A DNA stretch of 64,000 nt, from NCBI RefSeq assembly GCF_012317585.1, contig NZ_CP042909.1:1240001-1304000 (forward strand), written 5' to 3'. Source of the DNA: Thermosulfurimonas marina (lineage in GTDB: Bacteria > Desulfobacterota > Thermodesulfobacteria > Thermodesulfobacteriales > Thermodesulfobacteriaceae). Shown piece by piece: positions 23,257-25,496 of the stretch (positions are counted from its first letter, which is position 1; the number at the start of each line of letters is the position of its first letter). The notes under the pieces were generated by a model. That model ran no database searches. It had not been told where the DNA came from and worked only from the letters and a program-made list of their open reading frames with translations. The position numbers and the translations under genes are program-made.

Positions 23257-23331
23257 TGGGGGGTCGTCTAATCGGCAGGACAGTGGGCTCTGGACCCACC
23301 GGTCTAGGTTCGAATCCTAGCCCCCCAGCCA
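23257..23331 (+). tRNA. tRNA-Gln (anticodon CTG)
   Basis: A complete cloverleaf. Acceptor TGGGGGG pairs with CCCCCCA; the anticodon stem-loop is GTGGG-CTCTGGA-CCCAC with CTG at 23290-23292; the T-loop is GGTTCGAATCC. Discriminator G is followed by an encoded CCA. It lies 20 bases after the deaminase stop and 4 bases from the end of the convergent DsrE-like gene. A second tRNA-Gln (TTG) is at 37.3 kb. Confidence 0.95.
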
Positions 23332-23335
23332 ATTT

Positions 23336-23749
23336 TTAGTAGACCAGGACCCGCTTGCTCTCCCAGATCATCTGGTAGAAGGCTTTGCGGCCGGCAGGTG
23401 TGACCTTGGGAGAATGCACTCCGTGCATTCCTAGGGCCTTCTTTCAGCCGTAAAGTCTGCCCCCGGCCCGGAGGAAGTTCTCAATTTTTTGGGCCAGGTC
23501 CACGGGTTCGTTCCCGGCCTTGAGGATCTCCACCCCCTTTCCGGTGAGATAGACCTTTACTTGGTCTCCTTGAGAGAGGGCGAAGTTGGCCAGGCGGAAG
23601 GCCTGCCAGGCCGTTTCTTGATCATTGGTGGTAATGACTATTAAAAGCCCTCTTTGAGCGGCCGAAGAGGATAAAGCTCCTCCCACAAGCCCTATCACCA
23701 AAAATACAAAGATAAGGGTCCCGAGTCTGGCCTTTCTCATCTTTTTCAC
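23336..23749 (-). CDS. DsrE-like sulfur-relay protein, candidate selenoprotein with in-frame UGA
   Basis: The frame from ATG 23749 encodes an N-terminal hydrophobic signal/anchor (TLIFVFLVIGLVGGAL) and a DsrE/DsrF-like domain: GLLIVITTNDQETAWQAFRLA, KVYLTGKGVEIL, FLRAGGRLYG. It then meets TGA at 23446-23444 and continues without interruption as KKALGMHGVHSPKV... AFYQMIWESKRVLVY to TAA 23336, giving 137 residues. The tail has the normal DsrE ending (compare LYELVQESDRVVSF in the neighbouring paralogue). The UGA falls exactly at the first Cys of that paralogue's ACGTC. A SECIS-like hairpin follows. An AGGAGGTG site precedes ATG. If UGA were a stop, the protein would lose its redox residue and last helix. 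Confidence 0.78.
23402..23438 (-). promoter_or_regulatory. Candidate bacterial SECIS element for the DsrE-like gene
   Basis: Thirteen bases after the UGA, a perfect 8-bp stem GAATGCAC/GTGCATTC closes a GGA loop (G first). The loop begins 21 bases after UGA, inside the range known for SelB-dependent elements. A lower stem GGCC/GGTC can close the structure across an internal loop. It lies within the coding frame, as bacterial SECIS elements do. Confidence 0.65.
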
Positions 23750-23763
23750 CTCCTCTGGGGAAT

Positions 23764-24065
23764 TTAAAAACTCACGACCCGATCACTTTCTTGGACCAAT
23801 TCATAGAGGTCCTTGAGGGTGGAAAGGGCTTTTCCCGTAATTTGAGACAGGTCCCGCAGGCCAGGATCTCTCCCCCGGCAGAAAGGAAGTCCTCTAGTTG
23901 TTTGCGCACGTTGAAGGGGCCTTCGGCGATTTCCGGGGCCTCCACTCCTTCCCCCATGAGGAAGACCTTTACCTCATCTCCGGCTTTGAGGGCGAAATTG
24001 GCCAGTCTGACCGCATTCCAGGCCTTTTCAGCCTCTTTAGTGGTGATGATGATTCCGAGTTTCAT
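23764..24065 (-). pseudogene. DsrE-like protein, one base short of an intact frame
   Basis: ATG 24065 (GGAGGTCTCCC upstream) starts a soluble DsrE-family protein: GIIITTKEAEKAWNAVRLANF, KVFLMGEGVEAPEIAEG, LEDFLSAGGEILACGTCLK. After the AAA run (plus 23841-23843) the frame reads an unrelated tail, while the neighbouring frame gives ITGKALSTLKDLYELVQ then ESDRVVSF and TAA 23764. One extra A restores ACGTCLKITGKALSTLKDLY and a 100-residue protein. CxxC (CGTC) is the likely persulfide/redox site. It is a close paralogue of the candidate selenoprotein downstream and overlaps the DUF5714-like gene by 29 bases. Confidence 0.8.
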
Positions 24066-24638
24066 GGGAGACCTCCTTTAGAGGATTTGTACCGGGCCAG
24101 TAGGGGCATTTGCTCTTGCGGCAGCCGTGGGGATGTCTTTCAAACCAGAGACAGGTCACCGGTCCGACCCTTAAGGGGTATTGAGGGAAACTCCGGCGCA
24201 AGAAGTCCACCGCCAGGTCCAGGGCCTTCCAGAGATAGGCCTTGCAGCAACCGGGGCCGGTGATCTCCGCCAAGGCCCTAGAGAGGTTTCCGGCAATTGC
24301 ATGACCTCTCGCTGGGGAGAATCCGTGCCGCACCTGGAGCCCAGGAGATGGGCCAGGACCGCCCCCAAGGCGGGGACTATCCCGCAGACCCCGGTGAGGC
24401 CGCAGAATCCGCTTCGGGCTTGAACCTGGGTGCGGGCGAAGACCTCCAGATCCCTTTCGGAAAGGGTATAACCTGCGGCGGAAAGGGCTCCCAGAAGGGC
24501 CGCGGCCGCGAGATAGGCGTGCTCACAACCGAAGACCTCCTGTCCCTGATCAAGATAACGGAGGGGAAGACCGCAAAAGGCGCAATGTACAACCCCCAGG
24601 GCTGGGGGTTTTGCGGTTTGGCGTCATTGGCGAATCAT
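24037..24638 (-). pseudogene. DUF5714-like Cys-rich protein with an early in-frame UGA and a one-base frame break
   Basis: From ATG 24638 (GGGAGGG upstream) the frame reads M-I-R-Q then TGA 24626-24624, and stays open: VVHCAFCGLPLRYLDQGQEV, FGCEHAYLAAAALLGAL, SGFCGLTGVCGIVPALGAVLAHLLG. Near 24298-24305 the homology passes to another frame: AIAGNLSRALAEITGPGCCK, FLRRSFPQYPLRV, RKSKCPYWPG. One missing base explains the shift and would give about 200 residues. CxxC, CxxxxxC, CC and a terminal CxxxxCPY are as in DUF5714 proteins of methanogens and sulfate reducers, whose role is unknown. Without UGA readthrough, no normal start codon precedes the CxxC. Confidence 0.65.
24591..24610 (-). promoter_or_regulatory. 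Hairpin 13 bases after the early UGA of the DUF5714-like gene
   Basis: AACCCCCAG and CTGGGGGTT form a 9-bp perfect inverted repeat with two bases between (more realistically an 8-bp stem with loop GCCC, G first). Position relative to the UGA matches the DsrE-like SECIS candidate. It could instead be a 5' regulatory hairpin; it lacks a U tract, so it is not a terminator. Confidence 0.45.
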
Positions 24639-24720: not shown

Positions 24721-25164
24721 TCAGGATTGGCGGAGGAGTAGACGATGGCGCAGGTAGGTCGCGCCCTCCAGAGGGACTCTCAGACGACGGGCCAGTTCGC
24801 GGTCCGAAAGGTGGGGTTCCTTTTGGAGGACTTTTTGGGCTTCGGCCAGGAGTTCGTCAAGCCACTCCTCAAAAAGGAGCTTGAGCCCCTCGGGGACCTC
24901 CTCGGGGAGAGTTTCGGTCTCGCTCACCGTGGAGACCATGGCTCGGCAGACCGAACGCGGGTCCACGCCCGCGTCAAAGCACTTGGCCAGTCAGTAGTAG
25001 ACCATGGAGGGGACCCGCCCCTCCTCTCCCCGAAAGATCTCTAGAAAAAGTTCCTCCTGGGCCTTTTCGTCCAGGATCTCGTAGAGCTGGCTGAGGAGGG
25101 TCCGCAGGGCAGAACGCATTTCTTCCACTTCGGCCTGCTGGAGCCATTCCTGAAACTTGGTCAT
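24721..25164 (-). CDS. Unknown protein, candidate selenoprotein with in-frame UGA
   Basis: ATG 25164 overlaps the ArsR stop (TGATG). The frame reads 57 residues of helical, acidic protein (TKFQEWLQQAEVEEMRSALR, LYEILDEKAQEELFLEIF, RVPSMVYY), then TGA 24993-24991. It then continues in the same frame as LAKCFDAGVDPRSVCRAMVS ... ELARRLRVPLEGATYLRHRL to the stop at 24721. The total is 147 residues, with helical composition and codon usage unchanged across the TGA. U58, C62 and C72 could form a redox or metal site; the C-terminal 35 residues resemble a helix-turn-helix. I recognise no family. If UGA is a stop, two orphan fragments result. A SECIS-like hairpin follows. Confidence 0.65.
24949..24988 (-). 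promoter_or_regulatory. Candidate SECIS element of the unknown UGA-containing gene
   Basis: ACGCGGG pairs perfectly with CCCGCGT (plus a G-U pair at the base) around a CGTGGA loop with G in second position. The stem starts 16 bases and the loop 23 bases after the UGA. GGCC/GGTC can again form a lower stem, as in the DsrE-like element. Confidence 0.6.
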
Positions 25165-25442
25165 CAGGTATCCTCCCTCAGGGATTGGGCCAGGCGGAAG
25201 AGCTCAAAGACCCGGGAACTTTTCAAACGGTAGAAGACGTAAGGCCCTTCTTTGCGGCTGGTGACCAGGCCAGCGAGTTTGAGTTCCCTCAGGTGATGGG
25301 AGACCAGGGGCTGGGAGAGTTCCAGCCGGCTCACCAACTCTCCCACCGAAAGCTCCCCCTCCTTCAGGGCCTCAAGGATTCGCAGGCGATTTTCCTCCCC
25401 CAGGGCCTTAAAAAAATGGGCCAGGGTCTTGAGCTCTCCCAT
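25164..25442 (-). CDS. ArsR-family transcriptional regulator
   Basis: A 92-residue winged helix-turn-helix protein: FFKALGEENRLRILEALKEG, LSVGELVSRLELSQPLVSHHLRELK (recognition helix) and LVTSRKEGPYVFYRL (wing). It has no Cys, so a classical thiolate metal site is lacking; a persulfide-, oxidant- or other-ligand sensor is possible. It heads the operon with the unknown UGA-containing gene (TGATG overlap) and diverges from the aminotransferase gene. TATAAA ends 6 bases before its ATG, so its mRNA may be leaderless. Confidence 0.88.
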   Translation of the reverse strand: MGELKTLAHFFKALGEENRLRILEALKEGELSVGELVSRLELSQPLVSHHLRELKLAGLVTSRKEGPYVFYRLKSSRVFELFRLAQSLREDT

Positions 25443-25448
25443 GGGCCT

Positions 25449-25496
25449 TTTATACCATAGGATGGCCTTTTGTTTAGCCGCCTCCGGTGGTATAGG
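25449..25496. promoter_or_regulatory. Divergent extended -10 promoters for arsR-like (-) and aminotransferase (+)
   Basis: Minus: TGG-TATAAA at 25457-25449, 6 bases from the ArsR ATG. Plus: TGG-TATAGG at 25488-25496, about 27 bases before ATG 25524. Both share the TGGTATA core also seen at 10296 and 14734. ArsR autoregulation from this 30-base interval is plausible. Confidence 0.5.

Follow-up and report, generated by a model that had tools for sequence, protein, structure and literature searches.

A predicted exported, cysteine-free DsrE-like selenoprotein encoded in a Tso-like operon of Thermosulfurimonas marina

DsrE-like selenoproteins have been described in the literature, and the published ones carry the motif UxxC (PMC1088965, PMC2398784, PMC1794560, PMC9312934, PMC13188914). 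In related DsrE complexes, the sulfur-transfer residue is the DsrE cysteine (PMC13293266). The protein described here is encoded on the minus strand at positions 23740 to 23336 of the window, by which we mean the whole 64,000-nucleotide stretch of Thermosulfurimonas marina DNA that was analysed. It resembles the UxxC proteins in that it belongs to the DsrE family, has selenocysteine (Sec) at the first active-site cysteine and comes from a group of hosts that includes sulfur bacteria. It differs from them in that it is predicted to be exported, has the active-site motif UKKA without a resolving cysteine and falls in a separate clade adjoining an exported Cys DsrE protein. A later cysteine has been lost as well, and the protein, with UKKA and no cysteine anywhere, does not match the published UxxC motif. 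In the literature examined on DsrE-like selenoproteins, we found no description of an exported, Cys-free DsrE selenoprotein. With DsrE of DsrEFH and TusD of TusBCD the protein shares the fold and the position of the reactive residue, but it is predicted to be exported, has Sec in place of Cys and is not encoded in a gene trio; it gave no match to TIGR03012 (TusD/DsrE), and an E-F-H trio is absent from the operon. The best sequence match among solved structures is E. coli YchN (1jx7; E 3e-05), which differs in being a cytoplasmic Cys protein of unknown role that lacks Sec. The host bacterium is related to sulfur-disproportionating thermophiles. The YTD cluster (PMC8780430) also contains a DsrE-type gene in related sulfur-disproportionating bacteria, whereas the operon described here has neither a yedE-like nor a tusA gene.

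The gene probably starts at the ATG at 23740, which is preceded by AGGAGGTG; a GTG at 23749 is less likely. It encodes 134 residues, with TGA at 23446 to 23444 as codon 99 and TAA at 23338 to 23336 as the stop. The original prediction held that this TGA is the only interruption of the frame and that reading through it gives a complete DsrE-type protein. Both points were borne out: the frame is otherwise open, and the read-through product, which has one UGA codon and zero cysteines, matches Pfam family PF02635 (DsrE) over the whole domain with 40.6 bits, against a curated cut-off of 22.7 bits. The AlphaFold2 model (pLDDT 87) confidently predicts a DsrE fold in which a strand ends at Sec99 and the final strands and helix consist wholly of sequence encoded behind the UGA. 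Its best PDB matches in a Foldseek search are DsrE-type proteins, including 2hy5_B of DsrEFH. At the N-terminus, about 28 residues (23657 to 23740, minus strand) are a putative signal peptide, with a hydrophobic core and small-x-small sites in the five orthologues, and this part is modelled as a low-confidence helix separate from the domain. The protein had been proposed to be exported and membrane anchored. Export can indeed be inferred from the hydrophobic N-terminus, but this segment is more probably a cleavable signal peptide than an anchor. A tRNA-Gln(CTG) gene on the plus strand (23257 to 23331) faces the stop codon of the Sec DsrE gene head-on at a distance of five bases, and the same tRNA gene apparently lies at the equivalent spot at three other loci (L002, L004, and L005). 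We put the probability that the selenoprotein identity, the export and the operon of this gene are all as described at about 0.9, a figure that leaves the substrate aside.

The operon has five genes on the same strand, in the order ArsR regulator, TsoA-like selenoprotein, DUF5714, Cys DsrE and, last, the exported Sec DsrE. The first (25164 to 25442) encodes an ArsR/SmtB-type regulator (NF033788, 96.4 bits; cut-off 55) without any cysteine, and its stop overlaps the start of the TsoA-like gene. It resembles TsoR, with a match to NF045707 (TsoR) of 89.1 bits that lies under the cut-off of 115. The TsoA-like gene (24721 to 25164) has a UGA at 24993 to 24991 in the sequence YYULAKC, and this UGA is kept in eight relatives and across the wider family; a strong SECIS-like hairpin is predicted at 24954 to 24975. 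Its product matches NF045695 (LULAXC selenoprotein TsoA) over the full length, including ULAKC, at 94.6 bits, under the cut-off of 170. TsoB is absent from the genome (best match, E 1.2e-6 and 26.6 bits versus a cut-off of 805). As portrayed in a review (PMC13188914) and in the curated models, the three selenoprotein operon Tso likewise has a regulator followed by a TsoA-like ULAxC gene with selenoprotein genes alongside. Here, compared with that description, TsoA and TsoR score under the curated cut-offs, TsoB is absent and DsrE genes follow instead. Judged by these models, the operon is Tso-like, yet it falls outside Tso. An imperfect 12-base inverted repeat (25451 to 25462 and 25483 to 25494) just ahead of the regulator gene is too weak for an operator call.

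Similar arrangements were found in other genomes. Using tblastn, TsoR, TsoA, Cys DsrE and exported Sec DsrE were seen in this order in four relatives (G001, G003, G004, and G008), with DUF5714 sitting within the order in G004 and G008. In three more (G002, G005, and G025), TsoR and TsoA are followed by a cytosolic Sec DsrE. Overall, 8 of 41 relatives have TsoA, with a Sec DsrE shortly downstream in all eight. Across the phylum there were TsoA matches in 45 of 395 genomes, nearly always with TsoR ahead in the loci examined. A UGVC DsrE lies within 1 kb at 6 of 30 TsoA loci of the phylum, and the direct order TsoR-TsoA-DsrE occurs in G385 (Sec) and G179 (Cys).

Two genes of the operon have decayed in the window genome. 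The DUF5714/MbdU-like gene (24037 to 24602, minus strand), intact in relatives, is a remnant that has lost its N-terminal half and misses one base near 24295. We rejected it as a member of the MbdU double-selenoprotein family, as it reaches 72 of 600 bits. A MIRQ-UGA near its start was also rejected as a third Sec codon: it precedes the part that aligns with homologues, and UGA is absent at this place in relatives. The adjacent Cys DsrE gene (23764 to 24065, minus strand) is a degenerate copy, since a deletion of 19 bases between 23829 and 23828, after CGTCLKLREK, shifts its frame; it is intact in G001, G003, G004, and G008. This paralogue had been offered as an internal control for the position of the UGA. 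It is itself a broken copy, but its four intact orthologues align in the same way. The Sec DsrE and TsoA-like genes are both intact. With DUF5714 and Cys DsrE broken, the exported Sec protein is thus retained here without both companions, and the operon may be losing function in this genome.

What the protein does can be suggested from its fold and family. UGA codon 99 would be decoded as Sec by SelB and tRNA-Sec with the help of the SECIS hairpin just downstream, and the signal peptide would direct the DsrE-fold product outside the cytoplasm. Sec99 would occupy the reactive-Cys position of DsrE proteins and, because the usual partner cysteines are gone, an internal selenenylsulfide could not form. 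It may instead accept one sulfane sulfur from a polysulfide or persulfide and hold it or hand it on, with release by an outside thiol or a partner protein, in parallel to the persulfide on the DsrE cysteine. A single-Sec carrier of sulfane sulfur outside the cytoplasm is the functional reading that we prefer, tentatively and at somewhat less than even odds. The regulator has no cysteine and the substrate is putative, so that the case for a sulfur carrier is drawn from the fold and family of the protein. It is a rather doubtful suggestion that a Tso-like pathway dependent on selenium has the exported, Cys-free DsrE at its outer end, and that a selenosulfide relay through Sec99 replaces the Cys persulfide relay. 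Sec99 would then capture extracytoplasmic polysulfide or sulfane sulfur as a selenosulfide and pass it to a partner in sulfur-disproportionating thermophiles.

Alternatively, the same selenoprotein could trap or deliver a soft metal or metalloid that Sec99 binds outside the cytoplasm, with the ArsR regulator sensing the metal. Other selenoprotein operons have been tied to metals (PMC13188914), and this operon has an ArsR/SmtB-type regulator as well as a DUF5714 gene related to MbdU, which is named as metal binding. We nevertheless consider metal binding unlikely: the fold is that of DsrE, with nearest structures of the sulfurtransferase type, the regulator lacks cysteine, a lone Sec makes a poor metal site and this genome retains the Sec protein but has a broken DUF5714 gene. 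Slightly less probable again is an activity as reductase or peroxidase in which Sec99 attacks and an outside thiol resolves. Thiol-dependent selenoproteins are mostly redox enzymes, and single-Sec catalysis without a resolving cysteine is common. However, DsrE proteins are not known as reductases, and the fold is not thioredoxin-like.

The sulfur, metal and redox readings all take the protein to be the same selenoprotein, and here the comparative evidence bears most directly. A search of 41 related genomes gave four orthologues (G001, G003, G004, and G008; 62 to 63% identity), each with one internal TGA, at the codon that corresponds to codon 99 here. Including the window protein, the five sequences all continue for 35 codons past the UGA to an identical end point, with 23 of these 35 residues identical in all of them. 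The variable sites at the first, second and third codon positions number 30/15/61 in the 67 codons before the UGA and 8/7/25 in the 35 codons after it, a pattern from which it follows that constraint at the level of the protein is the same on both sides of the UGA. In an alignment of 14 family members, the UGA column is otherwise an invariant Cys column, which agrees with the proposal that UGA replaces the first redox cysteine. Distant DsrE homologues, whether Cys or Sec forms, share the C-terminal strand and helix and the C-terminus of the window protein, and none ends at the position of the UGA. A wider contig scan for exported Sec forms returned only three close records, from Thermosulfurimonas dismutans S95 and two MAGs, and these correspond to three of the four orthologues. 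Because five related species retain the in-frame UGA and the coding sequence beyond it, we regard it as almost certain that the exported DsrE-type protein carries Sec as its sole thiol-like residue. A pseudogene or natural stop, with the part behind the UGA left unread, might have been suspected from the two broken neighbours, but it is very improbable given the UGA and the constraint kept in five genomes, and truncation would cost the fold its last strands and one helix. For the same reason, that five genomes keep it, we rejected decay as the origin of this UGA.

The genome also has the machinery for Sec. Matches were found for selA (620 bits), selB (379 bits) and tRNA-Sec (83.9 bits; anticodon TCA), and selD is present (L034, G000:C1:297108-298037) with a UGA of its own close to the start, in KAAG-U-AAK. 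This UGA presumably stands at the catalytic position, and its presence would make the selenophosphate synthetase itself a selenoprotein. With this machinery, the shared UGA codon and the constrained coding behind it, the candidate of the original prediction is well supported as a selenoprotein. Decoding of UGA as an ordinary amino acid, by an altered genetic code or plain suppression, would equally explain the coding past it and is the least probable explanation of all, as UGA is a normal stop elsewhere (it ends the TsoA-like gene and the L003 orthologue, on which grounds we rejected a changed code), the Sec machinery is complete and this UGA coincides exactly with a Cys column and is followed by a hairpin at the spacing of a SECIS element.

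The hairpin itself, predicted as an 8-bp stem with a GGA loop 21 bases from the UGA, is present at 23411 to 23431 (minus strand) with nine contiguous pairs; the loop (23422 to 23420) begins 21 nucleotides after the UGA. This agrees with the SECIS criterion of a G within the first two bases of a loop that lies 16 to 37 nucleotides after the UGA. Most of the Sec DsrE genes that were examined have a loop beginning 18 to 22 nucleotides after the UGA, with a G among its first two bases; the minimum-energy fold differs at L002, L009, L010, L014, and L024. Over eight ungapped sequences a 7-pair stem is 92.9% paired, versus 21 to 59% for slid versions, and three of the eight have a compensatory G-C to C-G exchange. 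A loosely SECIS-like hairpin lies beside 6.2% of the 1,323 TGA triplets in the window, whereas a GG loop at precisely +21 occurs at just 2 of the 1,323. An equally long stem appears in 10% of synonymous reshuffles of the protein and the folding energy is ordinary; we therefore rejected the hairpin as stand-alone proof, and taken alone, given the protein sequence, it is weak evidence. The conserved UGA and the constrained coding sequence behind it, unlike the hairpin, are decisive evidence for a selenoprotein.

Cytosolic DsrE genes containing UGA are widespread in the phylum, with the motifs UGVC, UGKC, UGKL, UGAC, and ULTC in separate clades (L009, L010, L012-L015, L025, L066, L108-L126, and L132-L148). 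The UGKL proteins are cytosolic Sec forms that also lack the resolving cysteine. Among the sequences examined, exported Sec DsrE proteins were found only in the window genome and the four orthologues. In a tree of 35 sequences with an arbitrary root, these five form one clade (support 100/99) that adjoins an exported Cys protein from G025 (100/96), while the UGVC and UGK clades lie elsewhere in the tree. That the Sec clade adjoins this exported Cys protein indicates that DsrE proteins have switched between Cys and Sec on more than one occasion; with its arbitrary root, the tree is compatible with either direction.

Annotation with the standard code would truncate both selenoprotein genes of the operon at the UGA. 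Our results tie DsrE proteins to the uncharacterised TsoR-TsoA operon in several sulfur-bacterial families, which may give a lead to the role of this operon. One of the exchanges between Cys and Sec fell in an exported lineage that has lost all its other cysteines. A Cys-free Sec DsrE would therefore allow the contribution of selenium to DsrE chemistry to be studied cleanly at a single residue.
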